A DNA stretch of 64,000 nt from the NCBI GenBank assembly GCA_017994935.1, contig JAGOJU010000015.1, positions 1 to 64,000 of the forward strand, read 5' to 3'. The DNA comes from Opitutaceae bacterium (GTDB taxonomy: Bacteria > Verrucomicrobiota > Verrucomicrobiia > Opitutales > Opitutaceae). A program made the translations under genes and the position numbers. Positions within the stretch are counted from its first letter, which is position 1. Each line of letters begins with the position of its first letter. Below, in pieces: positions 4,178 through 23,941 of the stretch. The notes below the pieces were generated by a model. The model had not been told where the DNA came from. It was given only the letters and a program-made list of their open reading frames with translations, and searched no databases.

Positions 4178-4194
4178 GATTGCCCATTTCGTGC

Positions 4195-6240: not shown

Positions 6241-6321
6241 GGTCGGAAACAGATGGTCAAGGCAGCGGGAAGTGACGGTGCAGGGTGGAACACGAAGCCC
6301 TGGAGCGGTTGGGCCCTCGCT

Positions 6322-7149: not shown

Positions 7150-8615
7150 TGGGTGCGTGCGCGTTCGCTGGCGAGCTTGGCAGCAAGCGATTTCACCCGC
7201 GCGGGTTCGGATTTTGCGAGATCGTGTGTTTCCACGAGGTCCGCAGCGAGGTTGTACAGCTGCGGGCCCGCAGCGGATTCAATCAGCTTCCAGTCACCTT
7301 CACGGATCGCGAGATAGGTGGGGCGGTTGCTTTGGAGGACCAGTGCGGGCCGTTGCGTTGCGTTCGCATTGAGTAGGAGGGCTGCCTTGAGATTGACTCC
7401 GTCGGGGGCTGCACCGGCGGAAATCCTTCTTCCCGCCAGATCGGCGAACGTGGGAAGCAGATCGACGAGGCCGAGCAGCGCGGAGGACTCGCGGCCCGCC
7501 GGGATATGACCTGGCCAGCGGGCGAGGAAAGGCACGCGGTGACCGCCTTCGTACAGGCTGCCCTTCTGCCCGCGCAGGATGCCGTTGGGTTTCTGGCGGC
7601 CATGCAGCGCGTTGGTGCCGTCGTCGTAGGTGCTCTTGATGGCACCGCCGTTGTCGGATGAGAAAATTACGAGGGTGTTCTGCGCGAGCCCCAGGCGATC
7701 GAGGGTTCCGAGCACCTCTCCCACCGTCCAGTCGAGCTGATGGATGACATCACCCCGCCATCCGCAATCGCTGGTGCCGCGGAAGCGTGGATTGGGAACC
7801 ATGGGTTCGTGGATATCGTGCGGGGTGAGAAGCAGGAAAAAGGGCTGTTCCTTCTTCTGACGTTCGAGGAACGTGACAGCCTGGCGGGTCAGGGTATCGG
7901 CAATGGTTTCGTCCACCCATTGGGCGCGGTGGCCGCCAGTCATGAAGCCGATACGGCTGATGCCGTTGACGATGGCATCGGAATGCGAGGCATCCCCCTT
8001 GATCTTGAGCCAGTCCTGATGCTCGCTGCCGATCGGCTCATTGCCGATCCGCCCCTTGTAGCTGACCGTGATCGGGTCGGTTGGCTCGAGGTCGACGACA
8101 CGATGATTCTGGACGAAAACGCAGGGCACGCGGTCGCCCGTGGCGGGGATGTAAAACGCGTAGTCGAAACCGAGTTCCATGGGGCCGGGTTTGATGTCGG
8201 TGTTGAAGTCCGGGGTCGTGGTTCCGAGTCCCAGATGCCATTTGCCGATCAGCGCCGTGGAGTACCCGGCGGATTTCAGCTCGGACGCGATTGTGGGCGT
8301 GCCCTGTGGAATGAGAAGGGTCGAGTCTCCTGGGGCGATGCCCGTGCCCGGAACGCGCCACGCGTACTTGCCGGTGAGCATGGCGAACCTCGTCGGCGTG
8401 CAGACGGAGGCGGTCGCATGCGCGTCGGTGAAACGGGCACCCTCGCGGGCGAGCCGGTCGAGGTTGGGCGTGCGGACATGGGTGGCGCCATAACAACCAA
8501 GGTCGCCGTAACCGACATCATCGGAGACGATCAGAATGATGTTGGGTTGCGTTGCAGCGATGACGGTGGTCGCGAGGAGCAGGCTGAGTGTCGTGAGCAG
8601 GTGGCGAAGATGCAT
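7146..8615 (-). CDS. Secreted sulfatase (arylsulfatase A-like)
   Basis: This is a 489-residue protein with a signal peptide (1-20, cut after 'VIAAT'). Metal ligands are Asp32-Asp33 in 'IVSDDVGYGD', and the formylglycine motif is CTPTR at about residue 72. 'ALIGKWHLGLG' and 'FSSDNGGAIKS' are also present. The C-terminal 'LYNLAADLVETHDLAKSEPARV' segment is the usual sulfatase tail. It sits between two other sulfatase-type genes in the same direction, 67 bases after the preceding one, and its stop overlaps the next gene's ATG. The regiospecificity is unknown. It closely resembles the sulfatase at 10393-11949 in motif layout ('KPGPMELGFDYAFYIPATGDRVP' against 'KPGPIEVGFDSAFFLPATVDRVP', in pieces), so the two may be paralogues. 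Confidence 0.95.
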   Translation of the reverse strand: MHLRHLLTTLSLLLATTVIAATQPNIILIVSDDVGYGDLGCYGATHVRTPNLDRLAREGARFTDAHATASVCTPTRFAMLTGKYAWRVPGTGIAPGDSTLLIPQGTPTIASELKSAGYSTALIGKWHLGLGTTTPDFNTDIKPGPMELGFDYAFYIPATGDRVPCVFVQNHRVVDLEPTDPITVSYKGRIGNEPIGSEHQDWLKIKGDASHSDAIVNGISRIGFMTGGHRAQWVDETIADTLTRQAVTFLERQKKEQPFFLLLTPHDIHEPMVPNPRFRGTSDCGWRGDVIHQLDWTVGEVLGTLDRLGLAQNTLVIFSSDNGGAIKSTYDDGTNALHGRQKPNGILRGQKGSLYEGGHRVPFLARWPGHIPAGRESSALLGLVDLLPTFADLAGRRISAGAAPDGVNLKAALLLNANATQRPALVLQSNRPTYLAIREGDWKLIESAAGPQLYNLAADLVETHDLAKSEPARVKSLAAKLASERARTQ

Positions 8616-8682
8616 GGGAGGCGGGATCAGTTGGGAAGTTTCAATGGGACCGGAGGACTGCCGTGTGGTCGTGGGGGAGGTT

Positions 8683-10281
8683 TCAGCGGGTGCCGGCGGC
8701 GGAGATGGCTTCCGCGATGGATTTCAGACCGAGCGGGTGCTGGCGCGCAAAACCATCAAGGCCGTCGACACCCCCCTTGGGCCAGTCGGCGCTGTCGGCA
8801 TATTGGCCGTCATCCTTGAACTCCTTCTGCAGGCGGGCGATTTCGGCCTTCAACTCCGCGAATTTGGCGGCGATCGCCGGCTGGCTCGCTTCCGCGGGAG
8901 AGAACAGGAGGTTGTGCTGTTCGTCCGGATCCTTCGTGAGGTCGAACATCTCGTAGGCATTCTGTTTCCAGTAATAGACGAGCTTGTGCGTCGCCGTGCG
9001 GACTCCGAGGTGGGCGTGCGTGTTGTGGTGGCCCGGGTCGTGATAGTAGCGGTAGTAGATTGAAGTCCGCCACTCGGCGGGCTTCTCGCCGTGCAGAAGG
9101 GGTGCCAGCGAACGGCCTTGCATGAATGCGGGGATCGGCAGGCCTGCCAGGTCCAGAAAAGTGGGCGCAAGATCGATGTTGGCGATGAACTCGGGAAGCA
9201 CGCTGCCGGCCTTGATGCCGGGACCCCGAACGAGAAGAGGCACCCGCAGGCCGGGCTCGTACATGAAGCGCTTGTCATAGAGCCCCAGGTCGCCGAGGTA
9301 CCAGCCGTTGTCCGCCGCGTACATGACAATGGTGTTTTTCGAGAGTCCGGTCTGATCCAGGTAGTCGAGCACCCGGCCGACTCCGTCGTCCACGCCCTGC
9401 ACACAGGCCAGGTAGTCCTGCATGTAGCGCTGGTATTTCCACCGGACAAGTTCGCGGCCCGTGAGGGTCTTTCCATTCACCGTGACCTCCATGGGTTTCG
9501 TCTGGAGCCACGCCCGGAGTTTCTCGCCCGTGAGGCCTGCGGGTGGCTCCATCTTCAGATCAAGGCGGGTGAGGTCGCGGGCGACAGTCTGCTGATTGAC
9601 GGGGAGTGCGGCCGGGCGGGTGGCATAGTCATCCCACAAGGTTTCCGGTTCAGGGATGACCCGATTCTTGAATAGCGCCTTGTTGCGCTCGTCGGGCTCC
9701 CAGGGGCGGTGGGGCGCCTTCTGGTGCAGCATCAGGAAGAAGGGTTTGTCCTTCGGTCGCGTGCGAAGCCATTCCAGGCCGAGATCGGTGGTGATGTCCG
9801 TGCAGTGACCGTTGATGCGAAGCTCCCCGCCCGGTACCAGGAACGAGGGATCGTGGTACTTGCCCTGCCCTACGAGGACGATCCAGCGGTCGAAGCCCAC
9901 GGGGTTGGAGCCCAGATGCCATTTGCCGATCACACCGGTATGGTAACCTGCGGCCTGGAGGTGCTTGGCGACGGTGTCACGCGAGCTGTCGAAGCGGTTG
10001 AACACGGGCACACCGTTGAGATGGGAATACTGTCCCGTGAGCAAGGTGGCGCGGCTGGGGGTGCAGATGGAATTCGTGACAAACGAGTTTGAGAATCGTG
10101 CTCCCTCCGTCGCCAGCCGGTCAATGTGAGGCGTTTGATTGACCTTTGATCCATACGCGGAAATCGCGTGCTGCGCGTGATCGTCGGAAAAGATGAAGAG
10201 GATGTTGGGACGATCGGCGGCAAAAGCCGCGGCGCACAGAAGGCAGGCGAGAACGGGAAGGCGGAGATGCATGGGAATCAT
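8683..10281 (-). CDS. Secreted sulfatase with long central insertion
   Basis: This is a 532-residue protein when started at the ATG at 10281 (10272 is an equally good start). The signal peptide is 'LPVLACLLCAAAFAA'. 'NILFIFSDDHAQHAISAYG' carries the metal Asp pair, CTPSR at about residue 73 is the formylglycine motif, and 'GVIGKWHLGSNP' and 'YAADNGWYLGDLGLYDKR' follow. The 'DDH' start and 'YLGDLGLYDKRFMYEPG' pattern place it in the group of N-acetylglucosamine/heparan-type or multi-sulfated-glycan sulfatases rather than the arylsulfatase A type of its neighbours, with an insertion between about 200 and 300. It is part of the minus-strand block, 111 bases after the previous sulfatase. Confidence 0.94.
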   Translation of the reverse strand: MIPMHLRLPVLACLLCAAAFAADRPNILFIFSDDHAQHAISAYGSKVNQTPHIDRLATEGARFSNSFVTNSICTPSRATLLTGQYSHLNGVPVFNRFDSSRDTVAKHLQAAGYHTGVIGKWHLGSNPVGFDRWIVLVGQGKYHDPSFLVPGGELRINGHCTDITTDLGLEWLRTRPKDKPFFLMLHQKAPHRPWEPDERNKALFKNRVIPEPETLWDDYATRPAALPVNQQTVARDLTRLDLKMEPPAGLTGEKLRAWLQTKPMEVTVNGKTLTGRELVRWKYQRYMQDYLACVQGVDDGVGRVLDYLDQTGLSKNTIVMYAADNGWYLGDLGLYDKRFMYEPGLRVPLLVRGPGIKAGSVLPEFIANIDLAPTFLDLAGLPIPAFMQGRSLAPLLHGEKPAEWRTSIYYRYYHDPGHHNTHAHLGVRTATHKLVYYWKQNAYEMFDLTKDPDEQHNLLFSPAEASQPAIAAKFAELKAEIARLQKEFKDDGQYADSADWPKGGVDGLDGFARQHPLGLKSIAEAISAAGTR

Positions 10282-10392
10282 GAGGCGGCGGGTAAAAACG
10301 ACCGGCAAGCGTAGTCGGAGGATGACGGATCTTTCAACAGTTTCCACCTTCACGAACACTGCAAGCGGGACGCACCGGATTGCACTGCGCCG

Positions 10393-11949
10393 TCAATCGC
10401 CCTGCCGGATCTCCTGGAGACGCGCCTTCATCGCGGCGACCCGATCGGGATGACGCGAGGCGAGGTTGGCCGACTCCGATGGGTCCTTGGCGAGGTCGTA
10501 GAGTTCATCCGCACGAATGATGGAATGCGTCCAGCGCTTGTCCTGGGGATCGGCGCCGGCGCCCATGCCGGAGACCTGCTGCTGGGGGCTTGCCGGGATG
10601 AGTTTCCAGTCACCCATCCGCAAGGCGAGCGTGTTGGAGATGGCCTGTTCGACGATCTCGGTGCGAATGGCGGGACCCCGTTTTCCAAGGAGAACGCGCG
10701 ATTGGTCGATACTGTCGCGTGCGATGCCCGTCGCGATCGGCTGGCCCGTGATGGCGCTCAGGGTCGCATAGAGATCATTCAACCCAAGAAGACGGTCGTC
10801 GACACCGGGTTTCACGTGGCCCGGCCAGCGGGCGATGAAGGGTATGCGGAGCCCGCCTTCGTAGGGAAGGTACTTCCAGCCGCGCAGTCCCCCCGCGGGC
10901 CGATGCGAGCCGTTCAATTCGGCAGACTGATCGTAATAGCCATCGTAAAGCACCGGGCCGTTGTCGGAGGTGAAGATGACCAGGGTGTTGTCCGCGACAC
11001 CCGAACGTTCGAGTGCGGCGACGACTGCACCGACGGTCCAGTCGAGCTGGACGATGGCATCACCGCGTCGCCCGAGTTTCGTTTTTCCCACGAAGCGGGC
11101 ATTGGGCGCGTGGGGCACATGGGGGTCATGCAGTCCCAGAAGGAGGAAAAAGGGACCCGACTTGTGCGCCTCGATGAAGTCCGCGGAGCGGCGGGCAAGG
11201 AGATCCGCAATATCCTCGTCGACCCAGCGTGCCGTGCGGCCGCCGGCCATGGAGCCGATGCGGCTGATGCCGTTGACGATGACATTCGAGTGGATGGCCT
11301 CCGCGCCCATCTTGAGAAGGTCGGGGCGTTCGGCACCCGTGGGTTCAGGATTTACCCGCTGCTGGTAGCTGACGCGGATCGGGTCGGAAGGATCAAGTCC
11401 GGAGACGCGGTGATTCTCGATGAAGACGGTGGGAACACGATCGACGGTGGCGGGAAGGAAGAAGGCGGAATCGAAACCCACTTCAATCGGACCAGGTTTG
11501 ATGTCGCCATTGAAGTCGATCGGATGCGTGCCGTCGCCGAGTCCCAGATGCCACTTGCCGATCAGACCGGTGAAATAGCCCGCCTTCCGGAGCTGGGTTG
11601 CCAGTGTGGGACGCGCCGGGTCAAGCGCGAGGGGAGCATCGCCGTCGAGAATGGAGGTTTTCTTCTCGGGCTGGCGCCAGCCGTATTCTCCCGAGAGAAG
11701 CGCATAACGGCTCGGGGTGCAGGTCGACGCGGGCGCATAGGCGCAGGTGAATCGTCGGCCCTGCCTGGCGAGGCGGTCTAGCTGCGGGGTCGGTATGTCC
11801 GTTGCGCCATAGCAGCCGATGTCGCCATATCCCAGGTCATCCGCGATGATGATGACAATGTTCGGACGTGAGGACGATGCGGCCGGAAGCAGTGCTGCGG
11901 CAGGGACCAGCGCGAGGGCGGCCGCCAAAAGGATTCGACGGAGGTTCAT
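10393..11949 (-). CDS. Secreted sulfatase (arylsulfatase A-like)
   Basis: This is a 518-residue protein. The ATG at 11949 is preceded by a good GGGAGGAG ribosome site and begins a signal peptide ('LLAAALALVPAAALLPAA'). 'IIIADDLGYGDIGCYG' holds the metal ligands, CTPSR at about residue 77 the formylglycine Cys, and 'LIGKWHLGLG' and 'FTSDNGPVLYDGY' follow. The start codon overlaps the TGA of the small membrane-protein frame (ATGA at 11946-11949), which ties the sulfatase to the symporter genes upstream. It is close in layout to the sulfatase at 7146-8615. It acts outside the cytoplasm on a sulfated sugar of unknown type. Confidence 0.95.
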   Translation of the reverse strand: MNLRRILLAAALALVPAAALLPAASSSRPNIVIIIADDLGYGDIGCYGATDIPTPQLDRLARQGRRFTCAYAPASTCTPSRYALLSGEYGWRQPEKKTSILDGDAPLALDPARPTLATQLRKAGYFTGLIGKWHLGLGDGTHPIDFNGDIKPGPIEVGFDSAFFLPATVDRVPTVFIENHRVSGLDPSDPIRVSYQQRVNPEPTGAERPDLLKMGAEAIHSNVIVNGISRIGSMAGGRTARWVDEDIADLLARRSADFIEAHKSGPFFLLLGLHDPHVPHAPNARFVGKTKLGRRGDAIVQLDWTVGAVVAALERSGVADNTLVIFTSDNGPVLYDGYYDQSAELNGSHRPAGGLRGWKYLPYEGGLRIPFIARWPGHVKPGVDDRLLGLNDLYATLSAITGQPIATGIARDSIDQSRVLLGKRGPAIRTEIVEQAISNTLALRMGDWKLIPASPQQQVSGMGAGADPQDKRWTHSIIRADELYDLAKDPSESANLASRHPDRVAAMKARLQEIRQGD

Positions 11950-12175
11950 GACTGCTCCTCCCGTGACTTGCGGGCGGCGCGGACACGGGTGCGGCGAACC
12001 AGCCATAGCATGACGATTCCGAACGCGGCGAAGATCAGACCCCAGAGCGAATTGACGTTCTGTCCGAGGGAATGACGCGCATAGACCTCGGGGGAGACGA
12101 GAAGACCGTAAACGGTCAGGAGGAGTCCGGAGGCGAGAAAAACAGACCGACAGGAAGGCGGATATCGAGACTCAT
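11946..12175 (-). pseudogene. Small two-helix membrane protein, frameshifted
   Basis: An ATG at 12175, 12 bases after the symporter stop, starts MSLDIRLPVGLFFS and would stop after 19 codons. In the +1 frame the protein continues as 'LASGLLLTVYGLLVSPEVY', then 'NSLWGLIFAAFGIVMLWLV' and a basic tail, ending at a TGA that overlaps the next ATG by 4 bases. Joined, this is a coherent ~77-residue protein with two hydrophobic helices. The shift lies in a run of five T (read on the minus strand, near 12137); a sixth T would restore one frame. Causes could be mutation, sequencing error or programmed frameshifting. It is probably an accessory of the SSS symporter, by position only. Confidence 0.7.
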
Positions 12176-12187: not shown

Positions 12188-13924
12188 TTACCAGAAAATG
12201 ATGTTGAGGACGACGGAAGCGGCGAGCGCGGCGATTCCCAGAGGAACGGGACGTGCATACCAGGCGACGGAAGTATCTGCGGCCAGCCTTGGAGTGAGGG
12301 AGTAGACGAGCCCCTTCAGTTCCTCCTCCTTCCGGTTGGGGCGTGTGGCGAGCGAAACAAGAATGCATCCGAGGAAGCAGCCCGTGAACGCGAAGATCGC
12401 CATCCAGAAATTCTGGGCCATGGAACTGGCAAATGTGTGCTGCACCGAGAGCCATCCCCCCTTGAGGAGTCCGTGAGTTTCACCGACGGGAACGGTGCAT
12501 CCCTGGAAGAGGGCGGCGGACGTGGTGCCGAGGACAAGACCCCAGAAGGCACCGTGTCCGGTCGCGCGCCGCCAGAACATTCCCAGAAGGAAGACTGCGA
12601 AGAGCGGGGCGTTGACGAAGCCGAACACCAGTTGAACGGCGTCCATGATGTTGTTGAACTGTGCGGCGGCGTAGGCGCACGCGGCGCTGATCAGGAGGCC
12701 CACAACCGTGGTGAGACGGCCGACACGGACGAGATGCGCATCGCTCGCATCCGGCTTGAACCACCGCTGGTAGAGATCGTAGGTCCAGACCGTGTTGAAG
12801 GCGGTGACGTTTCCGGCCATGCCGGACATGAACGAAGCAACGAGCGCCGTGATGCCGACACCGAGCAGTCCATTGGGCAGGTATTTCGCGAGCAGCGCGG
12901 GCATGACCATGTTGAAGTCGGGCTGTCCGTCCGATGTGAGGGGGATCGGGAGGTCGGTGGCTCCTCCGCGATGGAACAGCGCGATGGCGATCAGGCCTGG
13001 AACGATGACGAGGAAAGGCATGAGCATTTTCGGAACGGTGGCGATGAGCGGAGTCCGCCTGGCGGCGCTCATGTCCTTGGCCGCCATGGCCCGCTGGATG
13101 ACGAGAAAGTCGGTGCACCAGTAGCCGAAGGAGAGGACAAAACCGAGACCCGCAACGACGCCGAACCACTCGATGCCGATCGGGTTGTCCGCGGGATGGG
13201 CGGTGTGCGCAAAGGTGGATGTCCATGCTCCGGGCATGCCGCGTCCCGCGGAATACGAGGCGAGCTGCCTCTCAAGTCCGCTCCATCCTCCGATGTCCTG
13301 GAGCCCGAGAAGCACCAGGGGGAGAAGACCGAGCACGATGAGGAAAAACTGGAGGACCTCGTTGTAGATCGCGGAGGTGAGTCCGCCGGCGTAGATGTAG
13401 ACGAGCACGACGAGACTCGAGGCGACGAGGCAGACATCGAAGTTCCATCCGAGGATCGCATTGAGCAGCTTTGCGAGGGCGAACATCGAGATGCCCGATG
13501 AGAAGACCGTCATGACAGCGAACGAGAGAGCGTTGAGCGCACGGGTCTTCTCGTCGAAGCGCAGCTTGAGATATTCGGGCACCGAGCGGACTTTCGAGCC
13601 GTAGTAGAAAGGCATCATGAAGAGGCCGAGGAAGACCATGGCAGGGATGGCCCCGACCCAGTAGAAGTGTGCCGAGAGCATGCCGTACTTGGCGCCACTT
13701 GCCGCCATGCCGATCACCTCCTGTGCGCCCAGGTTGGCACCGACAAAACCGAGGGCGCAGATCCAGGCGGGCAGGGAGCGCCCAGACTCGAAGAAATCGG
13801 AGCTGGTGCGGAGGTGCTTTCTCAGTGTCCAGCCGATGCCGAGGACGAAGGCGAAGTAGAGGCCCAGGATCAGGTAGTCGACCCAGGCGAGTTCAAGGAG
13901 GATGGAGGCGAGGGGAGGGGTCAT
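12188..13924 (-). CDS. Sodium:solute symporter (SSS family), sugar-type
   Basis: This is a 578-residue integral membrane protein with about 13-14 hydrophobic segments. The N-terminal 'WVDYLILGLYFAFVLGIGW', 'SSDFFESGRSLPAWICALGFVGANLGAQEVIGMAASGAKYG' (in pieces) and 'YIYAGGLTSAIYNEVLQFFLI' are SSS-family signatures resembling SGLT-type sugar carriers. It imports a small solute with Na+ across the inner membrane. Its ATG overlaps the stop of the phosphotriesterase gene (13921-13924), and the small membrane-protein gene follows after 12 bases. In this block it probably brings in the monosaccharide released by the sulfatases. The substrate is inferred from context only. Confidence 0.95.
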   Translation of the reverse strand: MTPPLASILLELAWVDYLILGLYFAFVLGIGWTLRKHLRTSSDFFESGRSLPAWICALGFVGANLGAQEVIGMAASGAKYGMLSAHFYWVGAIPAMVFLGLFMMPFYYGSKVRSVPEYLKLRFDEKTRALNALSFAVMTVFSSGISMFALAKLLNAILGWNFDVCLVASSLVVLVYIYAGGLTSAIYNEVLQFFLIVLGLLPLVLLGLQDIGGWSGLERQLASYSAGRGMPGAWTSTFAHTAHPADNPIGIEWFGVVAGLGFVLSFGYWCTDFLVIQRAMAAKDMSAARRTPLIATVPKMLMPFLVIVPGLIAIALFHRGGATDLPIPLTSDGQPDFNMVMPALLAKYLPNGLLGVGITALVASFMSGMAGNVTAFNTVWTYDLYQRWFKPDASDAHLVRVGRLTTVVGLLISAACAYAAAQFNNIMDAVQLVFGFVNAPLFAVFLLGMFWRRATGHGAFWGLVLGTTSAALFQGCTVPVGETHGLLKGGWLSVQHTFASSMAQNFWMAIFAFTGCFLGCILVSLATRPNRKEEELKGLVYSLTPRLAADTSVAWYARPVPLGIAALAASVVLNIIFW

Positions 13925-14883
13925 GAGGAGGGGCCGGCGAGCCAGCGAAAGGGATTGTCGATCCAGATGGAGTTGAGTTCGGCGTCACTGAAACCCTCCT
14001 CGCGGAGCCGGGCTGTGAAATGGGTGAGAAGGTAGGCGTAGCCGGGTCCGCCGCCGTAGGATTTGAGATACGACCGGCGGGCCATGTCGCCGCCGAGCAT
14101 GAGTCGGTCGAGAAAGCCCGCTCCGATCATCTCGCGCATGAGGCGGGTGAGCACGGATTCCGGCTGGTACTTGAAGCGGCTTGGCGTGTCGTATTCCAGG
14201 AAGACGCCGGTCTGGGCAAGTTTGCGGTGGAGCCACAGGTCGGCATTTCGATCCATGTGGCAGACGAGGATGCTCCGGGAGGGAACGCCGGCATCGTTGA
14301 GACGTTGGACCAGTTCGAAACACTCCATGCCGCGTTCGGTGTGGACGAAGACGGGGCAGCCGGTGCGCTGGTGTGCGCGCCCGACCACGCGGATGAGCCG
14401 TTTCATGACGTCGTCCACGTAGTTGTACTGCCCGGCGACTTTCATCGCCCCCGCTTTCACGCTGCAGCGTTTGACAATCGGCCCCTGATATTCGTTGAGA
14501 TCACAGCCCTGCTGGATTTCGGCGACGATCAGTTCCGTCATCTCGTCTTCGCTGTACCGGTTGCGCCAGTGGTCCGGCCAGTAGTAGTAGCTCTTGTGAA
14601 ATCCGGTGGGCACGATGATCGGGATGCCCGTGGATTCGGACACCTTGATGAGCTTGCCGACATTGCGTCCGGCGGAGACCGGCATGGTGTCGACCATTGC
14701 GCCGCCTCCGGCGTCGCGCCATTCGATGACGTCCTTGATGGCGCACTCGACACTATCGAGGCGGAAATCCGGGTCCTTTACGATGCCCTGGCTGGAGTCG
14801 ATGAAGAGATGTTCGTGGGAGTTGATGCGACCGAGCCGCTCCTTCGGGAGCGGCCCCAGGGTGGTTTCGATGGTAAGGCTCAT
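13921..14883 (-). CDS. Phosphotriesterase-family metallohydrolase (lactonase-like)
   Basis: This is a 320-residue cytoplasmic TIM-barrel amidohydrolase of the PTE family. Metal ligands are visible in order: 'NSHEHLF' (HxH, residues ~22-24), a lysine in 'CSVKAGAMK' suited to carbamylation, His in 'FVHTERGMECF', His in 'LVCHMDRNADL', and Asp in 'LMLGGDMARRSY'. Most PTE-family members in sugar operons act on lactones rather than phosphotriesters. A role hydrolysing a sugar lactone made by the FAD oxidoreductase of the same block is a reasonable inference. It begins 24 bases after the MetE-like gene and overlaps the symporter start by 4 bases. Confidence 0.88.
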   Translation of the reverse strand: MSLTIETTLGPLPKERLGRINSHEHLFIDSSQGIVKDPDFRLDSVECAIKDVIEWRDAGGGAMVDTMPVSAGRNVGKLIKVSESTGIPIIVPTGFHKSYYYWPDHWRNRYSEDEMTELIVAEIQQGCDLNEYQGPIVKRCSVKAGAMKVAGQYNYVDDVMKRLIRVVGRAHQRTGCPVFVHTERGMECFELVQRLNDAGVPSRSILVCHMDRNADLWLHRKLAQTGVFLEYDTPSRFKYQPESVLTRLMREMIGAGFLDRLMLGGDMARRSYLKSYGGGPGYAYLLTHFTARLREEGFSDAELNSIWIDNPFRWLAGPSS

Positions 14884-14907: not shown

Positions 14908-15972
14908 CTACCGGGGGGATCCGTTGATCTCCGCGCGGACGAGTCCCGCGGCGGCGGCGAGCGAGGCGGCCTTGCCTCGTGCGCCGGAGCGCGGTGTCTG
15001 GCTGAAGCCGCAATCAGGCGCCAGCGCGAGCTTGTCGGCCGGCAGGTGGCGAAGGGCGAGACGGATGCGTGCTGCGACTTCCGCGGGCGATTCCACCTGG
15101 TGAAGCTTCACGTCCACCACGCCGATGGATACCCGCTTGAACACCTCGGCCAGCGGGGCGACGATCCCTATGCCGTTCATTTCCACACCGGCGAATTCGA
15201 GGTGAACCTGGTCGACCTTGAACTTTGCGATGGTGCCGATCACGGGCGAATAATCGCGCCGGGCGTAGGGCCTTCCGGCGAAGTTGCCGAAACACAGGTG
15301 ACACCAGATTTCCGCTTCGGCCGGCTTGCGCACTCCGTCGACCACGGCGTTGAACAGTTTTGCGATGTCCACATCCTGGACCTTGTGAATTGCGGGCGTC
15401 GGCTCGTCGATCTGCACGAACCGCGCGCCGGCGGCGAAGAGCTGCCGGATTTCCTCCTGAAGAAACGGCACCAGTGCCCAGGCGGCCTCTTCGCGCGAAC
15501 GATACGGGTGACCCTCGCCGGTCAGGATGCGACCCGCCAGCGTGTAGGGGCCAGGCAGTGGCACCATGAGCGGCCGGGACGTGCGCTTCCGCGCGTAGCC
15601 AAACTCCTGCGTCGTCCCGAAACCGGCCGGCACGGTGAAGGGCCGCGTGGCGCGAAACCGGTGCTGCTGGTCATGACTCGTGGCACCGAGCAGGCGTGCC
15701 GGCGGCACGGGTTCGAGTCCGGGGATGAAGCCGTAAAAGGCTGCCGTGAAAAATCCCGCACGACGCATCTCGCCGTCTGAGATCACATCGAGCCCCGCCT
15801 CCTCCTGATCGCGGATCGCGAGGTCGACAGCATCGTTCTGGAGCTCCTCGAGGTCGATGGGACCGAACTCACCGCGTCGCACGCAGGCGTGACAGCAATG
15901 GTACCAGCCGGGCCATGCGTAGGAACCGATGACGTGGGTTGGGAGAAGGGGCAGTGGGGCGGGCTTGTTCAT
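14908..15972 (-). CDS. MetE-like (cobalamin-independent) methyltransferase, single catalytic domain
   Basis: This 354-residue protein matches only the C-terminal catalytic half of cobalamin-independent methionine synthase (MetE, ~750 residues). Zinc ligands are apparent: His225 and Cys227 in 'CHLCFGN', Glu259 in 'VHLEFAG', and Cys321 in 'APDCGFSQ'. 'FVQIDEP' (Asp189-Glu190) is the substrate-binding motif. Stand-alone MetE cores transfer methyl groups to thiols from varied donors, often unknown. Its place in a sulfatase/sugar-kinase block is unusual. A role in demethylating an O-methyl sugar or in handling a methylated intermediate is speculation. It is cytoplasmic and starts 79 bases after the ROK gene. 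Confidence 0.85.
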   Translation of the reverse strand: MNKPAPLPLLPTHVIGSYAWPGWYHCCHACVRRGEFGPIDLEELQNDAVDLAIRDQEEAGLDVISDGEMRRAGFFTAAFYGFIPGLEPVPPARLLGATSHDQQHRFRATRPFTVPAGFGTTQEFGYARKRTSRPLMVPLPGPYTLAGRILTGEGHPYRSREEAAWALVPFLQEEIRQLFAAGARFVQIDEPTPAIHKVQDVDIAKLFNAVVDGVRKPAEAEIWCHLCFGNFAGRPYARRDYSPVIGTIAKFKVDQVHLEFAGVEMNGIGIVAPLAEVFKRVSIGVVDVKLHQVESPAEVAARIRLALRHLPADKLALAPDCGFSQTPRSGARGKAASLAAAAGLVRAEINGSPR

Positions 15973-16051: not shown

Positions 16052-17017
16052 TCATGCGGGGCCCTTTGCTTCGGTGGCGAAGTCGCGTCCGCTCAATGCG
16101 GCACCGATCCAGCCGGCGTCATCGATAAAGCGCGCGGCCCGCACCGGGATCGGGTAGTCGGGAGGGACGCGGAAAGCCGCGGCGTTGAGCGCGGCCTCCA
16201 AGGGGGGAAGAATGACATCGGCGGCGTGCATGGGGCCCCCGGCGAGCACGATCAGGTCCGGCGTGTAGGCATAGTAGGCATTGAGCACGACGGCGGCAAA
16301 ACGATTGAGCCAGCGTTCAAAGATGTCGGTGACGACCGGATCCTTGCGCCGCACGGCGCGCGCGATGTCGATGAATGCGATTTCGTGCGGCGCCTTTTTT
16401 CCGAGCAGCGAAGGAAGACCGCGGGCAAGATGATCACGCACGGATTGCACCAGCGCCGTGACGGAGGCGAGGCTTTCGCCGGTGCCGCGCGGACCCGTGA
16501 GGCAGCGGGGGCCGTTCACATCGATGACCATGTGGCCGCACTGTGTGCCGCGCTGCCAGTGGCGGTCGGTGAGCATGCGACCGTCAAGGACGACGCCCGA
16601 TCCGATTCCCGTGCCGAGAGTGAACACAACGAGATTCGCACAGCCCCTGCCGACGCCGGCATGCCATTCGGCCAGACAGGCCAGGCGCCCGTCGTTGTCG
16701 GCGATCACCGGCACCTTCCATCGCTGGCGCAGGTAGGGGACGGTTCGGTGGCGGTCGAGGCCGCTGATCTTGCCGGGAAGGTAGACGCATCCTACTGCCG
16801 GATCGACCGGACCCGTGATCGCGGCTCCGATGGCACCCAGCCTGCCGGACGCCTCCTGGAGCAGTCGGGTGACGAGTTGGTCGAGCTGTTTTTCGAAGGC
16901 ACGCAGGGATTGCCGGGACTGCGTGTCCTCCACGGCCCGCGCGAGGATCCGGCCTGCGTCATCGAGGACTCCGCCCTTGATGCGAGTTCCGCCGATATCG
17001 AGGCCGATCCAGTTCAT
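16052..17017 (-). CDS. ROK-family sugar kinase-like protein
   Basis: This is a 321-residue protein. 'IGLDIGGTRIKGGVLDD' is the N-terminal phosphate loop, 'GPVDPAVGCVYLPG' and 'IADNDGRLACLAEWHAG' (catalytic Asp) follow, and 'TLGTGIGSGVVLDGRM' completes the ASKHA fold. It has no N-terminal helix-turn-helix, so it is a kinase rather than a repressor. The usual ROK zinc motif CxCGxxGC is degraded: 'GPRCLTGPRGTGES' keeps only the first Cys. I start it at the ATG at 17017, whose ATGA overlaps the FAD gene's stop. It would phosphorylate the imported sugar in the cytoplasm. The changed zinc site suggests a diverged enzyme. Confidence 0.9.
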   Translation of the reverse strand: MNWIGLDIGGTRIKGGVLDDAGRILARAVEDTQSRQSLRAFEKQLDQLVTRLLQEASGRLGAIGAAITGPVDPAVGCVYLPGKISGLDRHRTVPYLRQRWKVPVIADNDGRLACLAEWHAGVGRGCANLVVFTLGTGIGSGVVLDGRMLTDRHWQRGTQCGHMVIDVNGPRCLTGPRGTGESLASVTALVQSVRDHLARGLPSLLGKKAPHEIAFIDIARAVRRKDPVVTDIFERWLNRFAAVVLNAYYAYTPDLIVLAGGPMHAADVILPPLEAALNAAAFRVPPDYPIPVRAARFIDDAGWIGAALSGRDFATEAKGPA

Positions 17018-18339
17018 TCGAGAATGGCTCCCTGGGAGCGGAGAGAGGAACGCAGGCGGGCGGGATCGACATCGGCGAAACTTCCGCCCTGGTTTGCCAT
17101 CAGGGAGGCGGCGACCCCCGCGGCATGTCCCATCACCATGCATTGTCCCATCGAGCGCACGCTGGCATGCGCGTCATGGGTGGCGGAAAAGCACCGGCCG
17201 GCAACCGCCAGGTTGTCCACTCCGCGGGGCACAAGCGTGCGATAGGGAATGCCGACACACTGGCCGTCCGGCAGGTAGTGCCAGCGCGTGCCGTCGCCCC
17301 CGTGGTGATCCTCGATCGGCGCACCGCAGAGCCCGATCTGGTCGTCAAACTGTCGGGCGCCGAGCACGTCATCCTTCGTGAGGCGGTAGAGTCCGTGGAC
17401 CCGCCGTGTTTCCCGGACACCGATCTGCGGGCCGAAGGTGGCGAGGCGGGCCTTGCCGTATCCCGGCACACGGTCGTGCAGGAACCGGATGTATTCGAGC
17501 GCCTGCTCGCGTCCGTCCATCTCCGCCCGGGTGAGGAGGTCGGGATCGGTCGCATTGATGACGATGCCGGCTGCCGTGCGCTCGAACGAGTTCAGGCGGG
17601 TCATGATGGTGGCGGTCATGCCCTCCACGGGAGTGATGTGATCGGAGCCCTCCCGGCGGGGAAGCCGGTAACCGAGTGTCGTCGCGGCCTCAGCCATGAG
17701 AGCATGCAGCCGGTCCTTGGTGACGGTCTTGCGCTGTGCCATGTCAACATTGGCGACGCGGAAGGAGGTGGTGAGGGTTTGCGCTGGCGCCTCATCGCCG
17801 GCGAGTTCGAAGGGAACGCCACCGAAGGAGCAGAGATCGGCGTCGCCCGATGCATCGATGAAGGCGCGCGCCCGGACCGCCTGGAGACCGGTCTTGGTTG
17901 CAATCACGAGAGCCTCGAAGCGTTCACGATTGCGGACGACGTCCTGGACGCTCGTGTGCAGAAGGACATGGGCCCCCGCACGGCGGACGAGACGCTCCCA
18001 GGCGATCTTGAGTTCGTCGGGATGGTAGGTGATGCCGGTGCCCGCGCCGAAAGTGTTCGGACGCTCGACCACGGGCCCGATGGCGCGCATCTCGGCCACC
18101 AGATCGTCGGGCACCCCCCCGACAACTTTGCGGTTTGTTTTCCCCGGAGTGTAGAAACCGTAGAATGTATCGAGGACGGCGGTGGAGGTTCCGCCGAGGA
18201 AGGGCAGCTTCTCGATCAGAAGCGTGCGGACGCCCGCACGGGCCGCGGCGATCGTCGCTGTGGCCCCTGCGGAGCCGGATCCGACGACCACAAGGTCAAA
18301 GTCACCGTAGATGGGAAGGGTTCTTGAATACGTGAACAT
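17014..18339 (-). CDS. FAD-dependent oxidoreductase (FAD_oxidored type)
   Basis: This is a 441-residue cytoplasmic flavoprotein. 'FDLVVVGSGSAGATATIAAARAG' gives the Rossmann GxGxxG motif near residue 15-22, 'LLIEKLPFLGGTST' the ribose-binding Glu and the GG doublet, 'ARAFIDASGDADL' the GD motif, and 'NLAVAGRCFSATHDAHASVRSMGQCMVMGHAAG' (in pieces) the C-terminal FAD motif. There is no signal peptide. It oxidises an unknown substrate, and context suggests a sugar or sugar lactone precursor. It begins 14 bases after the SIS gene and overlaps the ROK gene. The family (PF12831-like) is common in Planctomycetes/Verrucomicrobia sugar loci but is largely uncharacterised. Confidence 0.92.
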   Translation of the reverse strand: MFTYSRTLPIYGDFDLVVVGSGSAGATATIAAARAGVRTLLIEKLPFLGGTSTAVLDTFYGFYTPGKTNRKVVGGVPDDLVAEMRAIGPVVERPNTFGAGTGITYHPDELKIAWERLVRRAGAHVLLHTSVQDVVRNRERFEALVIATKTGLQAVRARAFIDASGDADLCSFGGVPFELAGDEAPAQTLTTSFRVANVDMAQRKTVTKDRLHALMAEAATTLGYRLPRREGSDHITPVEGMTATIMTRLNSFERTAAGIVINATDPDLLTRAEMDGREQALEYIRFLHDRVPGYGKARLATFGPQIGVRETRRVHGLYRLTKDDVLGARQFDDQIGLCGAPIEDHHGGDGTRWHYLPDGQCVGIPYRTLVPRGVDNLAVAGRCFSATHDAHASVRSMGQCMVMGHAAGVAASLMANQGGSFADVDPARLRSSLRSQGAILE

Positions 18340-18353: not shown

Positions 18354-19169
18354 TCAGGGCGTGGAGCGGTGGAGCGCCTGGGCATAGCGCCGGCGCTGGT
18401 CCCGAATCCAGGCATCGTAGGTGTCGCGTGTGTCGGCGACATGCATGTTGCGGAGAACCGGATGGCGGATCCCCCGGGAATCAAGTTCGCGCAGGGTGAG
18501 TTCATTCAGGCATTGGATGACACTCAGCGCACCGATGGAGGAAAGGGGGCACAGGGGATAGCGGCCCGTGTTTCCGGATACCAGCACGGTGGTGTCGCCC
18601 ATCGGCATGGCGTTGTCGAGGAGATGGACAATGCCTGGCGCCTCCTCGGCGATGTGCCAGAAGTTTTTTCCGGAGCTGTGTTTGGGCGCACCCTGGCGGG
18701 CCTGCTCGCGGCAGCAAAGCAGCACCAGCGGATTGGCGGGATGCAGCTGTCGCCAAGCGAGGGCGGTGTCGACCGCGGCCGCGGTCTGGCCGGTGGCGGA
18801 GATTGCAAGCAGCGGTTCGCCGGGTCCGACGTCCACCTCTGCGAGGAGCTGGCGGCCGAGTCCCTCGACCTTCTCAATCGTCTGATTGAGCCGGATGCCG
18901 TTGGGTCCGACGACGTCGACGAATGTCACGAGCCCCGTCTGCAGGATCGGGTGAAAGCCTGTGAGCGCGCCGATGCGGATGCACAACTCCTCGACCGCCA
19001 GGCGGGAATGTCCGTTGGCATAGACATGGACAACGCCGCCTCCGCCAAGTGCATCGGCGAAGAGCCGGGCGACGGCTGCGAGGGCCGGCTGTTGGGAGCG
19101 TAGGGAAAGCCGCACACGCTCAAGCTGGTCGGGGAAGTCGAGCTCCGGCGGGACAACGGAAGGAGGCAT
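18354..19169 (-). CDS. SIS (sugar isomerase) domain protein
   Basis: This is a 271-residue cytoplasmic protein with a phosphosugar-binding SIS fold. '[29 protein letters not shown]' (in pieces) is the first phosphate-binding loop, and '[20 protein letters not shown]' the second loop with its Ser/Thr run. '[12 protein letters not shown]' and '[33 protein letters not shown]' complete the fold. SIS enzymes isomerise or deaminate phosphosugars, so it could act on the product of the ROK kinase two genes downstream. It is the first gene of the block, so the promoter should lie in 19170-19243, next to the decayed AraC copy. Confidence 0.88.
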
Positions 19170-19182
19170 GCCCCGAGTCTAT

Positions 19183-19396
19183 GCCATTTTGCGGCTGGAA
19201 GCATCCAGAAACTACGCCCATTATTTCCGGAAAAATAGGGTACATGCCGGATGTCCGTTTCGAAACCTTTGGATTGACCGCGAGGCTGCTGTCGCCCCAC
19301 GCGAGGAGATGGAGCGGATCCATTTTCACAGTGAGTTTGATCAATGTGATAGTGGCGTGGGGGTCGATCTGGACAATACGCGCAGGTTGCTGGTGA
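19183..19396 (+). pseudogene. Decayed 5' copy of the AraC-type regulator gene
   Basis: Bases 19183-19345 repeat 21317-21479, the promoter and first ~35 codons of the intact AraC-family gene, with scattered substitutions and small indels. An ATG at 19244 gives [18 protein letters not shown], matching the intact protein, then leaves frame by a 2-base insertion ('MERIHFHSE' continues in another frame) and stops at 19396. After about 19345 the match to the intact gene is lost. Two short stretches (near 19350 and 19400) weakly recall later parts of that gene, as after internal deletions. It cannot make a regulator. The palindrome TTTCCGGAAA (19224-19233) just before the ATG is kept. Confidence 0.75.
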
Positions 19397-19494
19397 TGTT
19401 CGCAATGCCGCTGCTTTTGTCGCACTGCAAATCTCCAACCGGCGAAACAGGTTGTCTGCCCGTGCCGCATTACTTTTCCTCGCTCAAACTTCGC

Positions 19495-21183
19495 ATGACC
19501 TTGCTGAATGACTTCGTCAAAGGATCCAGGATCCTGCTGCTCTCGATCCTGACTGCCTGTTTTGGCGGCCATCTGCCTGCGGCGGCTGAATATGACCTGG
19601 TGATTTATGGCGGAACCTCAGCCGGGGTGGCGGCTGCGGTGCAGGCGAAGCGGATGGGCAAGACCGTCGTGGTGATCGAGCCCGGCCACCGGCTGGGCGG
19701 GTTGAGCAGCGGAGTCCTGGGCCAGACGGATATTGGCAACAAGGCGGCAATAGGTGGCATCGCGCGCGAATTCTATCAGGCTGTGCGCCGACACTACGAC
19801 GATCCGTCCGCGTGGAAATGGCAGAGGCACCAGGAGTACGAGGATGATGGCCAGACACGCACGACCGCGGGTGAGCTGGCGATGTGGACATTCGAGCCGA
19901 GTGTGGCGCTGAAGATTTTCAATGACTGGGCTGGCGGGAATCGAATCGACGTGGTTTACGGCGAGCGGCTCAACCGTCTGACCGGGGTGTCGCTGACACG
20001 CTCCATTCCCTGGCGTATCATGGCAATAGCGATGGAATCGGGGAAGGTGTTTCGCGGCCGCATGTTCATTGATGCGACGTATGAAGGCGACCTCATGGCC
20101 GCGGCGAAGGTCTCCTATACGGTGGGCCGCGAGGCGAACTCGCAGTATGGAGAGACAGCGAACGGCGTGCAGACGCTGTTGGCGAAGGCGCACCAGCTTT
20201 TCCCCGGTATCGATCCCTACCTCAAGCCTGGCGATCCCCGCAGCGGTCTTCTGCCGCACATCGATCCAAAGGGACCGGGCGAGGAGGGCGGCGCGGACAA
20301 ACGCGTGCAGGCCTATTGTTTTCGAATGTGCCTGACGGATCACCCCGACAACAGAATCCCTTTTGCCAGGCCGGAAGGCTACAATCCACTGTGGTATGAG
20401 TTGTTGCTGCGCAATTTTGAAGCCGGCGAGCGGAGGGTGCCGTGGATCAATTCCGCGATGCCCAACCGCAAGACGGACACGAACAACAAGCACGGTGTTT
20501 CCACGGATTTCATTGGTCAGAACTACGACTATCCTGAAGCTTCCTATGCGGAACGCGAAGAGATCGTGGCCAGGCACCGCCTTTACCAGCAAGGACTGAT
20601 GTGGACGCTGGCAAACAATCCCCGCGTGCCCGAGGCGGTGCGACGGGAGGTCGCGCGCTGGGGAATGACGAAGGACGAATTCGTGGAAGGCCACGGCTGG
20701 CAGGATCAGATCTACGTGCGGGAGGCGCGGAGGATGGTCAGCGACTATGTGATGACGCAGAACAACTGTGAGGGAAAAGCCGTGGCTGACGATCCGGTTG
20801 CTCTGGCGGCTTACACGATGGATTCGCACAACCAGCAACGCTATGTGGATGCGAGAGGCCATGTGCGAAATGAAGGTGACGTGCAGATCAAGGGATTCCC
20901 GCCGTATCCCATCAGCTACAAGTCCATTGTGCCGTCCGCCAGGGAATGCGCCAATCTGCTTGTGCCGACGTGCCTTTCAGCGAGCCACATCGCGTTTGGC
21001 TCGATCCGAATGGAGCCCGTGTTCATGGTGTTGGGGCAATCTGCCGCGACGGCCGCGGCCCAGGCGATCGACGGTAACAGGAACGTGCAGGACATCGACT
21101 ACGCAAGGCTGCGGGACCAACTGATCAAGGACAGGCAAGTGCTGGCCTGGCCGGGTCCGCGTGATTCCAAAGGCAAGCACTGA
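19495..21183 (+). CDS. Secreted FAD-dependent oxidoreductase
   Basis: This is a 562-residue protein from the ATG at 19495. A signal peptide ('[20 protein letters not shown]') precedes '[23 protein letters not shown]' with the GGTSAG form of the Rossmann motif, '[22 protein letters not shown]', '[16 protein letters not shown]' and the C-terminal '[36 protein letters not shown]' motif, all given in pieces. This PF12831-type group with 'YEGDLMA' is frequent in Verrucomicrobia and usually has a signal peptide, but its chemistry is unknown. The frame is open upstream to 19168, but those codons belong to the decayed AraC copy. It lies directly upstream of the intact AraC gene. Confidence 0.9.
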
Positions 21184-21316: not shown

Positions 21317-21479
21317 GGCATTTTGTGGCTGGAAGCATTCAGAAACTACGTTCATTTTTTCCGGAAAAATAGGATACATGCCGGATGTCCGTTTCGAAAC
21401 CTTTGGATTGGCCGCGAGGCTGCTGTCGCCTCCGCGGGCGATGGAGCGGATCCATCATCACAGTGAGATCGAGATCAAT
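21317..21479 (+). repeat. Direct repeat shared with 19183-19345 (araC promoter and 5' end)
   Basis: This ~163-base stretch matches 19183-19345 in the same orientation, at very roughly 85 % identity by eye. It covers about 60 bases of promoter and the first ~100 coding bases of the AraC regulator. Both copies carry a CCGG-centred palindrome a few bases before the ATG: TTTTTCCGGAAAAA at 21356-21369, and the shorter TTTCCGGAAA at 19224-19233. Confidence 0.85.
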
Positions 21480-22205
21480 TACCTGCTGAAGGGGAACGTC
21501 ACCTATCTGCATCGCGGCGTGATGAGGAGGTTGATTCCCGGGCGGTTGACCCTGTTCTGGGGGTCGACTCCGCATACCCTGGTGGCGGCGGATCGCGGCA
21601 GCCGGATGGCCTGGATCACCGTGCCGCTGGCGTGGGTGTGGAGCTGGACCCTGCCGCCACGTTTTATCAGCGGACTGATGGAGGGCAACTGGTGGGTTGC
21701 GCCTGCGGACAATGCGGGGCGGTTTGCAGTGCTGGACTGGGTTGAGGAACTGACCGATGCGAATCACCAGCAGCAGAGGCGCCTGCTGTATGAACTTCAG
21801 GCCTGCCTTCTCTGGATGGCGGAGCGGGCGGATGTTGAGGGAAACGTGCGGGGAAATGCCCGTGTGAAGTCCGTGCCCAACAACCTGCGGCATGTCGAGG
21901 TGATGGCCCGGTGCATGGCAGAACGGTATCATGAGAAACTGACCATTGCGGAGATTGCCGGCTCCGCCGGCCTTCATCCGAACTATGCCATGCCGCTGTT
22001 TCAGCGTCTGTCGGGCATCACCATCGGCGACTATCTGCGCCAATGCCGTGTGACGAACGCGCAGCGTCTGTTGCTTCTCAATGATGACAAGGTGGTGGAC
22101 GTCGCGCTGGCCTGCGGCTTCGGCTCGCTGAGTGCCTTCTATGAAGTATTTGGTCGCTGCGTCGGCGAGTCGCCCCAGGCGTTCCGGCGACGCATGCGGG
22201 AGTAG
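21378..22205 (+). CDS. AraC-family transcriptional regulator
   Basis: This is a 275-residue protein. The N-terminal cupin-like sensor is marked by 'RIHHHSEIEINYLLKGNVTYLHRG' (in pieces) and 'LTLFWGSTPHTLV'. The C-terminal ~100 residues form two helix-turn-helix motifs: 'KLTIAEIAGSAGLHPNYAMPLFQRLSGITI' and 'VVDVALACGFGSLSAFYEVFGRCVGESPQAFRR', each in pieces, with the AraC signature. It probably senses a sugar and activates nearby catabolic genes. The palindrome TTTTTCCGGAAAAA, 8 bases before the ATG, may be autoregulatory. A broken duplicate of its 5' end lies 2.1 kb upstream, next to the start of the minus-strand sulfatase block. Confidence 0.93.
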   Translation: MPDVRFETFGLAARLLSPPRAMERIHHHSEIEINYLLKGNVTYLHRGVMRRLIPGRLTLFWGSTPHTLVAADRGSRMAWITVPLAWVWSWTLPPRFISGLMEGNWWVAPADNAGRFAVLDWVEELTDANHQQQRRLLYELQACLLWMAERADVEGNVRGNARVKSVPNNLRHVEVMARCMAERYHEKLTIAEIAGSAGLHPNYAMPLFQRLSGITIGDYLRQCRVTNAQRLLLLNDDKVVDVALACGFGSLSAFYEVFGRCVGESPQAFRRRMRE

Positions 22206-22368
22206 GGCACGTGTGCCGGGAGGATGGAGGACTGTCATGCGCGAGCGGTTTCAGGCAAATGCGAGGGCTGGATCCCATTCTGTCCACGGGTCGAGGTGAA
22301 CGGCGCCGGTTTTGGCAAGAGGCAGGTTTGTCCGAAAGGAGTCGCCAGCGTTTGAGTCTGCTGAGAGA

Positions 22369-23898
22369 ATGTTTCCCGTGAAACTTCGTGCCCCTGTCTG
22401 GAGTATTCCGGGATTGATCCTTCTTGGTGCCTCGTTTGCGGCTGCGGGAAGCGGATCGCGTCCGAATGTGCTCTTCCTCGTCGCCGACGACCTGCGACCC
22501 GAACTCGGGTGCTATGGCGTGCCGGTGGTGAGTCCGAACATCGATCGCCTTGCGTCGCAGGGCGTGCTTTTCGATCGCGCCTATGCGCAGCAGGCGGTTT
22601 GTTCGCCATCGCGGTCGAGCGTGATGACCGGTGCGCGGCCTGACACCACCAAGGTCTGGGACCTCGTGACGGATTTCCGTGCTGCGATGCCCGATGTGAT
22701 CACGCTCGGGCAGCATTTCAAGAATCACGGCTATTTTTCGCAGGGCATGGGGAAGATCTATCATGCGGGCTTCAACGATGCGGCGACGTGGAGTGTGCCC
22801 TGGGGAACTCCTGCCGCTCCGACATATGCCAGTGAGGAGAACATGCGGCTGCGCCACCGGACGGAAGATGCCGCTCCCCGCCGAGGGCCCAAGGGAGGAC
22901 TGCTCGCGACGCCGCCCGGTTCGCGCGGTCCAGCGTACGAAGGTGAGGACGTGCCGGACGACACCTTCACCGATGGCAAGACGGCGCGCCTCGCGGTCGA
23001 GACACTTCGCGGGCTGGCTGCGAAGAACGAACCGTTTTTTCTGGCTGTCGGTTTTGCGAAACCCCATCTGCCATTTGTTTCGCCCAAACGCTACTGGGAC
23101 CTCTACGACCCCGCGCGCCTTCAGCTTGCGCCCAATCCCTTCTATCCAAAGGGGGCGCCTCCGTATGCCATACTTTCTCCTGGAGGAGAGGTGCGTTCGT
23201 ACCACGGCATGCCCGTCGGGGAGATTCCGCCGGAGGTGGCGCGCCGGTTGAAGCATGCGTACTATGCGGCGACGAGTTATGTCGATGCGCAGATCGGGCT
23301 GGTGCTGGATGAACTGGAGCGCACGGGTCTCAGGAAAAACACGATCGTTGTCCTATGGGGCGATCATGGATGGAAACTCGGCGAGCATCACGCCTGGAGC
23401 AAACACTCCAACGTCGAGAACGACACGCGCGTGCCGCTGATCATTTCTGCGCCCGGTCTCTCGTCGGCAGGATCCCACACGCGTGCGCTTGCGGAGCTGG
23501 TCGACATCTACCCGACGCTTTGCGATCTGGCGGGCCTACCGCTGCCGTCGCACCTTGAAGGAAACAGCCTCAAGCCGGTACTCGAACAGCCGGGGCGCTC
23601 CTGGAAACCTGCGGCCTTCAGCCAGTATCCGCGTGGGGTCAGACGCGAGGGAAGCGCGAAGAATCTCCAGCTCATGGGATACTCCATGCGTACGGACCAT
23701 TACCGTCTGACGGTCTGGACCCATCGGGACGATCATTCCCTCATCGACGCTGTCGAGCTCTATGACTCCGTCGCCGATCCGCAGGAGAACATCAATATTG
23801 CGGGAGATCCCGGGCAGGCCGAAGTCGTCTCGCGATTGATGAGCCAGTGGAGGGCCGGCTGGCAGGGCGCGCGGATGGCGCTGGAGAAGCATCCGTAA
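22369..23898 (+). CDS. Secreted sulfatase (iduronate-2-sulfatase-like)
   Basis: This is a 509-residue protein from the ATG at 22369. A signal peptide (to about residue 27, 'SFAAAGSG') precedes 'VLFLVADDLRPELGCYG', metal ligands included, and CSPSR at about residue 78 for formylglycine. The 'DDLRPELGCYG' start, 'VITLGQHFKNHGYFSQGMGKIYH' (in pieces), 'KPHLPFVSPKRYWDLYDP' and 'WGDHGWKLGEHHAWSKHSN' are hallmarks of the iduronate-2-sulfatase-like (S1_7 type) group, which acts on 2-O-sulfated uronic acids and other glycan sulfates. It converges with the sulfatase at 23942-25531. The GCCTC/GAGGC hairpin (23907-23924) between them is a weak terminator candidate. Confidence 0.95.
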   Translation: MFPVKLRAPVWSIPGLILLGASFAAAGSGSRPNVLFLVADDLRPELGCYGVPVVSPNIDRLASQGVLFDRAYAQQAVCSPSRSSVMTGARPDTTKVWDLVTDFRAAMPDVITLGQHFKNHGYFSQGMGKIYHAGFNDAATWSVPWGTPAAPTYASEENMRLRHRTEDAAPRRGPKGGLLATPPGSRGPAYEGEDVPDDTFTDGKTARLAVETLRGLAAKNEPFFLAVGFAKPHLPFVSPKRYWDLYDPARLQLAPNPFYPKGAPPYAILSPGGEVRSYHGMPVGEIPPEVARRLKHAYYAATSYVDAQIGLVLDELERTGLRKNTIVVLWGDHGWKLGEHHAWSKHSNVENDTRVPLIISAPGLSSAGSHTRALAELVDIYPTLCDLAGLPLPSHLEGNSLKPVLEQPGRSWKPAAFSQYPRGVRREGSAKNLQLMGYSMRTDHYRLTVWTHRDDHSLIDAVELYDSVADPQENINIAGDPGQAEVVSRLMSQWRAGWQGARMALEKHP

Positions 23899-23941
23899 GC
23901 CAGGCAGCCTCTGCAAAGGGAGGCGGGGGATCGGACGACTT

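Follow-up and report, generated by a model that had tools for sequence, protein, structure and literature searches.

Why would the catalytic half of a methionine synthase lie in the middle of an apparent sugar operon? The question is raised by a gene that we call METE, found in a 64,000-nucleotide stretch of DNA from an Opitutaceae bacterium (contig JAGOJU010000015.1, positions 1 to 64,000; hereafter the window). METE occupies 14908–15972 on the minus strand, starts with ATG and encodes a stand-alone MetE catalytic core of 354 aa, recognized by Pfam, alignment and a structure model. With a probability of about 0.4, METE is a folate-independent MetE-type core that forms an optional step of an oxidative Entner–Doudoroff-like sugar pathway and uses a non-folate methyl donor.

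Catalytic core and active site

The sole Pfam match of METE is Meth_synt_2 (PF01717; 93 bits, cut-off 21). The N-terminal half of MetE (Meth_synt_1) is missing, leaving a single PF01717 barrel, as a sequence-only reading of this DNA had proposed. Eight NCBIfam methionine-synthase models (PRK09121 included) match far under their cut-offs, the best being PRK04326 with 187 of 406 bits; TIGR01371, the model of canonical MetE, gives 70 bits (cut-off 930). An AlphaFold model (pLDDT 90.3, pTM 0.90, 54 sequences) predicts the fold of the MetE C-terminal barrel. Its top PDB match is MesD 3rpd (Z 38.0, 2.4 Å, 325 aligned residues) and MetE barrels rank behind, including the C-terminal barrel of Thermotoga maritima MetE, 1xdj (Z 35.5, 2.4 Å, 327 aligned). 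METE is under purifying selection: its dN/dS against two congeneric orthologues is 0.042 and 0.045, close to that of the neighboring PTE gene and below those of ROK, FAD and SIS in the same two congeners.

We aligned 101 PF01717 proteins including Escherichia coli MetE, with three fragments dropped; L002/L107 and L106/L109 are duplicates, each pair being one gene fetched twice. The close family is defined as the 67 aligned proteins more than 33% identical to METE, METE itself counted. Residues H225, C227, E259 and C321 of METE align with H641, C643, E665 and C726 of E. coli MetE, and S17, E68 and D189 with its homocysteine-binding residues 433, 484 and 599. The zinc ligands that the earlier reading had named are thus kept, with an exact match to the E. 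coli zinc columns in 67/67 proteins. S17 and D189 are also identical in all 67, and E68 in 66, the other having a gap. If columns are assumed independent, the chance that these seven preset columns are all near-invariant is 1.4e-7 (40 of 354 columns are near-invariant). Excerpts of PMC7857596 give the zinc and homocysteine roles of these residues in core methionine synthases.

The folate side differs. The folate residues of T. maritima MetE are Trp539, Glu583, Arg493 and a DMV motif (excerpts of PMC539065). The pterin Trp column (W561) holds R148 in METE and Arg in 48 of the 67 close family members. At the pterin Glu column (E605), METE has I195 and the family mostly I, D, C, V or M. The folate-tail Arg column (R515) holds D101 and is Asp in 67/67, in a region where the alignment is less certain, and the Met column of the DMV motif is Phe in 63/67. 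Because the pterin Trp is gone as well from 33 distant core forms in the alignment, its loss marks core enzymes generally and is not specific to METE. We read the protein as a probable combination of a complete acceptor half-site with an altered donor half-site. Given the predicted fold and the invariant residues, zinc-activated homocysteine is the most likely methyl acceptor, by analogy with MetE and MesA–D, and folate is an unlikely donor.

Among described systems, MesD, the core methionine synthase of aerobes, is the closest solved structure by both sequence and fold, with one barrel and the same zinc and homocysteine residues. METE is ~28% identical to 3rpd, which is a MesD protein and not the type sequence, and its phmmer score of 113 bits lies far under the limits that excerpts of PMC7857596 set for similarity to the MesD type protein (at least 390 bits by BLASTp, 560 bits by phmmer). 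MesX (PF08908) adjoins MesD, whereas METE is in a sugar operon in which no gene matches PF08908; genome-wide, PF08908 has no match in the own genome, but none in the control genomes either. Canonical MetE of E. coli and T. maritima has the same fold, zinc ligands and homocysteine site but consists of two barrels with the pterin Trp and Glu, in contrast to the one barrel of METE with pterin and folate-tail residues replaced. MesA, MesB and MesC resemble METE in having a single catalytic barrel and no folate domain. Their hosts are methanogens or Wood–Ljungdahl organisms (excerpts of PMC7857596): the MesA host is a methanogen, whereas METE is in a member of the Verrucomicrobiota, and MesB and MesC hosts have the corrinoid iron–sulfur protein CoFeSP (AcsC/AcsD), which is rarely matched strongly in METE-bearing genomes, where MetH is common. 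Judged by its sequence, METE would belong with the core MetE proteins, having a PF01717 barrel without Meth_synt_1 and retaining the zinc ligands and the Ser, Glu and Asp. The role of core MetE in aerobic marine bacteria is left open in the excerpts of two 2025 papers (PMC12478193; PMC12366255), and our search of the open-licence PubMed Central literature turned up no account of MetE cores encoded in sugar operons.

The operon within and beyond the genus

The minus-strand gene order is SIS, FAD, ROK, METE, PTE, SSS, with successive gaps of 14, -4, 79, 24 and -4 bases. The first gene encodes a SIS-domain (SIS_2) sugar isomerase-like protein (18354–19169; PF13580; 124.7 bits to PRK02947, cut-off 135). 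It is followed by an FAD-dependent oxidoreductase (17014–18339; PF12831) and a ROK-family sugar kinase (16052–17017; PF00480), whose inferred start at 17017 overlaps the FAD gene by 4 bases. Beyond METE are PTE, a phosphotriesterase-family hydrolase nearest to phospho-furanose lactonases (13921–14883; PF02126; PDB 3msr and 3pnz; 196 bits to NF045706, under its cut-off of 630), and a sodium:solute symporter, SSS (12188–13924; PF00474; over the TIGR00813 cut-off), which closes the tight run. The placement of METE between a ROK kinase and a phosphotriesterase-like gene, which the earlier reading had remarked on, is confirmed by the PF00480 and PF02126 matches on either side. A minus-strand sulfatase (10393–12006; PF00884) lies 181 bases downstream of SSS and is the first of several on that strand. 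Divergent from the operon, on the plus strand, are a second FAD oxidoreductase (19168–21183; PF12831) and an AraC/MelR-like regulator (21378–22205), the latter 92–93% identical in METE-bearing and METE-less congeners. A promoter and terminator scan, with counts near or under the shuffled expectation, gave no terminator-like site at either METE border.

Two congeneric genomes keep the window's gene order around METE (L024, matched to G007, and L025, matched to G005). A third congener, G008, has SIS, FAD, ROK, PTE and the AraC regulator at 82–92% identity but lacks METE, and its ROK stop overlaps the PTE start directly. The motif ATGAG flanks METE on both sides in the window and occurs once at the G008 ROK–PTE junction, so insertion and deletion of METE are both simple to picture. 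Beside that junction, the G008 symporter gene (L128:12312-12980) has lost its middle part and its frame, and of the second FAD gene a remnant is left. METE may therefore have gone with a decaying operon, which is a real alternative to gain. In more distant relatives (G259, G390, G509, G544 and G009), SDR, ROK, SIS and FAD genes, some with a KDPG aldolase gene, also occur with no METE at that position; G009 carries a METE copy elsewhere. Given these METE-less versions, METE is an optional module of the operon.

The close family of METE is rare in the phylum: of 387 Verrucomicrobiota genomes sampled, 8 have a member at E<=1e-30, the own genome included. METE has its closest relatives beyond the genus in Chloroflexota: a tree groups it and its two orthologues with five proteins of that phylum (SH-aLRT 95, quick method). 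Within this clade of eight (3 Verrucomicrobiota, 5 Chloroflexota), PTE lies beside METE in seven loci and FAD in six. The nearest Chloroflexota relatives are in SDR–FAD–PTE–METE–GFO clusters (GFO, Gfo/Idh/MocA protein), with FAD proteins 60–66% identical to the window's FAD and METE proteins 51–52% identical to the window's own. One such locus, L029, has the order KDPG aldolase, sugar-binding regulator, SDR, FAD, PTE, METE, GFO, DHDPS-family aldolase. In the Puniceicoccaceae locus L076 and in G288, METE is accompanied by SDR, SIS, FAD, a UlaG-like metallo-beta-lactamase-fold (MBL) hydrolase, two GFO, PTE and a transporter. Its neighbors in Anaerolineae include GntR, a fumarase-superfamily lyase, an amidohydrolase-2 lactonase relative, GFO, SDR, sugar ABC genes and a protein that we call C3. 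Three unrelated types of lactonase-type hydrolase (PTE, UlaG-like MBL and amidohydrolase-2) thus recur beside METE.

Locus ORFs in G+C-rich DNA were chosen by composition score. Within 6 kb of METE, a lactonase-type hydrolase is present in 26 of 71 close loci and an oxidoreductase in 35 of 71, versus neither in any of the 14 distant loci, a comparison that favors the sugar-pathway reading because the neighbor queries were drawn from close loci. The distant set comprised 17 rows minus three that are truly close (fragments L085 and L093, and L110 at 36.8%). Two observations count against the sugar-pathway reading: 23 of the 71 close loci contain none of the neighbor genes sought, and the operon of the METE-less congener looks partly decayed. 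Some Rokubacteria copies of METE lie near the housekeeping genes mreB and RNase E/G.

These clusters resemble those of phospho-furanose lactonase or Entner–Doudoroff type in sharing a PTE-family lactonase-like protein, oxidoreductases and a kinase, with KDPG aldolase present in METE relatives. No MetE-like member was found in the open-licence PubMed Central literature on such clusters.

A second, distinct conserved context occurs in Acidobacteriota/Aminicenantes (L043, L047 and L059), where METE lies after 2-oxoacid dehydrogenase subunits and before a FlK-type thioesterase and an enoyl-CoA hydratase. C3 is a highly conserved protein of ~326 aa found beside METE at L048:4941-5966 and in about 20 further loci, with the invariant motifs HWYCxHC, CGSGG and RPLDH. 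It matches nothing in Pfam, NCBIfam or the PDB, and a model of its fold (pLDDT 72.6) has no PDB counterpart at E<=0.001. Nothing therefore connects C3 to MesX, and a relationship between the two was rejected; C3 may be a partner that provides the methyl group in its loci.

Methionine synthesis and the methyl donor

The own genome assembly (4.13 Mb, 171 contigs, 89.9% complete) encodes MetH, split over two adjoining ORFs at C121:3995-7643. A full MetE or MetH elsewhere in the strain had been proposed as a check on METE; the split MetH answers it, alongside the lack of a MetE N-terminal domain in this genome. Of the 33 genomes that contribute loci with a close METE relative, 29 have MetH over the curated cut-off; the exceptions are G079, G080, G084 and G085. 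With MetH present in the own genome and in most relatives, METE is unlikely to be a housekeeping methionine synthase, and we judged it unlikely to be the strain's missing one.

The own genome also has a second PF01717 protein (G000:C89, about 87647-88666; L107:7648-8667). It is a core form with the same zinc and homocysteine residues but is only ~23% identical to METE, adjoins lipB and has no lactonase or FAD neighbor. It is kept through the genus and family despite MetH.

The proposed pathway takes its steps from the presumed roles of the operon genes. SSS would import the sugar, the FAD enzyme would oxidize it (SDR and Gfo/Idh/MocA proteins would do so in relatives), PTE would open the lactone, ROK would phosphorylate the sugar and SIS would isomerize it. 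Aldol cleavage would be a further step in relatives. In METE, the zinc ion would activate homocysteine as a thiolate, which would be methylated by some donor that is not methyl-folate, yielding methionine. Methyl transfer and the product are inferred, the identity of the donor most of all. A methylated intermediate of the sugar pathway is the putative donor, being the simplest that would explain the addition of METE to the operon. If the sugar were oxidized beside a methoxy group, the oxygen of that group would become a better leaving group, from which the zinc thiolate could take the methyl, making demethylation of an oxidized sugar onto homocysteine plausible. Against this, we know of no case in which a zinc thiolate demethylates a plain ether by SN2. 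In a more specific form of the idea, METE would be a homocysteine-dependent demethylase working without folate, corrinoid or oxygen: the oxidoreductases of the operon would convert an O-methyl sugar or sugar acid to a keto/enol form, which would give up its methyl directly to zinc-bound homocysteine. We hold this form to be unlikely. If it were true, growth on methylated sugars would yield methionine.

METE could alternatively be an ordinary core methionine synthase, fed as in MesB/MesC by a methyl-corrinoid protein encoded elsewhere, with the operon merely coupling its expression to growth on sugar. Its zinc and homocysteine residues are those of the described core synthases (excerpts of PMC7857596), and the own genome has stand-alone pterin-binding and corrinoid domains at C35:29353-32418. 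However, MetH is already present, a Pfam scan found no corrinoid gene among the operon genes, and the gene is as rare in the phylum as noted above. The CoFeSP subunit CdhD (PF03599, the one subunit sought) matches strongly in only 2 of 34 METE-bearing genomes (281 and 316 bits), G079 and G080 being the exceptions to MetH with strong CdhD; the remaining matches are weak, many of them in MetH or MetH-like pterin domains, and G000 (89.9% complete), G005 and G007 have none. A corrinoid donor unlinked to the operon is possible, but this explanation as a whole is doubtful.

The domains at C35:29353-32418 are separate from each other, lie outside MetH and are found in congeners too; judged by domain content, the locus appears to be a corrinoid methyl-transfer system.

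It is quite improbable that METE moves no methyl group and instead acts as a zinc-thiol alkyltransferase or lyase, joining homocysteine to, or freeing it from, a sugar-derived electrophile or thioether. The model for such an enzyme is epoxyalkane:CoM transferase, a relative. The zinc-thiolate site, the sugar oxidoreductase and lactonase neighbors and the fumarase-superfamily lyase accompanying METE in Anaerolineae would suit this chemistry, but none of them is specific to it, and the Pfam scan recognized no epoxide- or thioether-forming gene, nor any CoM gene, in the window's operon.

We give a similarly small chance to METE being an intact methyltransferase that came to lie between ROK and PTE by insertion, has no part in the sugar pathway and was retained, as a passenger, for some other benefit. 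Within the genus, it is at this site in just three genomes, and the 5-base repeats at both borders suit a simple insertion or deletion; against this speak its dN/dS of 0.04 and the fact that Chloroflexota link it to the same two families, FAD and PTE. Very improbable is a methyl-folate-dependent enzyme, as a lone barrel or with an unseen partner: the C-terminal barrel of MetE does contribute to folate binding (excerpts of PMC539065), but the stacking Trp, pterin Glu, DMV motif and tail Arg are all altered in METE, and PF08267, the MetE N-terminal half, is unmatched in the own genome, while a search of 10 genomes of the genus gave no match above its cut-off.

If METE does act as a folate-independent core in sugar oxidation, the presence of such cores in sugar-oxidation operons of several phyla, beside intact MetH, would represent a catabolic use of a methionine-making enzyme class. 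Because the genus contains this operon both with and without METE, the idea is open to direct test.

Substrate and glycan setting

The methyl groups of O-methyl sugars fit the logic of the operon and are a candidate substrate of METE. To our knowledge, bacterial removal of methyl groups from methylated sugars has been described for few cases. The known route for 6-O-methyl-galactose is an oxygen-using P450 (excerpts of PMC10033563). The sequence-only reading had suggested transfer of methyl groups to a thiol, perhaps from O-methylated sugars such as those in red-algal galactans. A homocysteine-type core inside a sugar operon agrees with the first part; the galactan context finds no support, as no agarase or carrageenase family is among the window genes scanned, whose Pfam matches are to sulfatases, a GH141 insertion domain, melibiase and a sub-threshold GH42, and as the nearest kin of METE beyond the genus belong to Chloroflexota. 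An inositol or uronate substrate was also considered, and the Gfo/Idh/MocA proteins of relatives give it no over-cut-off support, scoring far under the cut-offs for inositol and levoglucosan dehydrogenases. A search of the open-licence PubMed Central literature for O-methyl inositol together with methionine synthase returned nothing.

Two adjoining proteins of 377 and 582 aa without Pfam matches are encoded at 25531–28313, beside a sulfatase gene. Many sulfatase-like genes (three Pfam-checked) flank the operon at 3–12006 and 22312–25531, and beyond them are TonB plug proteins, a GH141 insertion domain and melibiase. From this gene content, the surroundings of the METE operon appear to be a sulfated-glycan utilization region.
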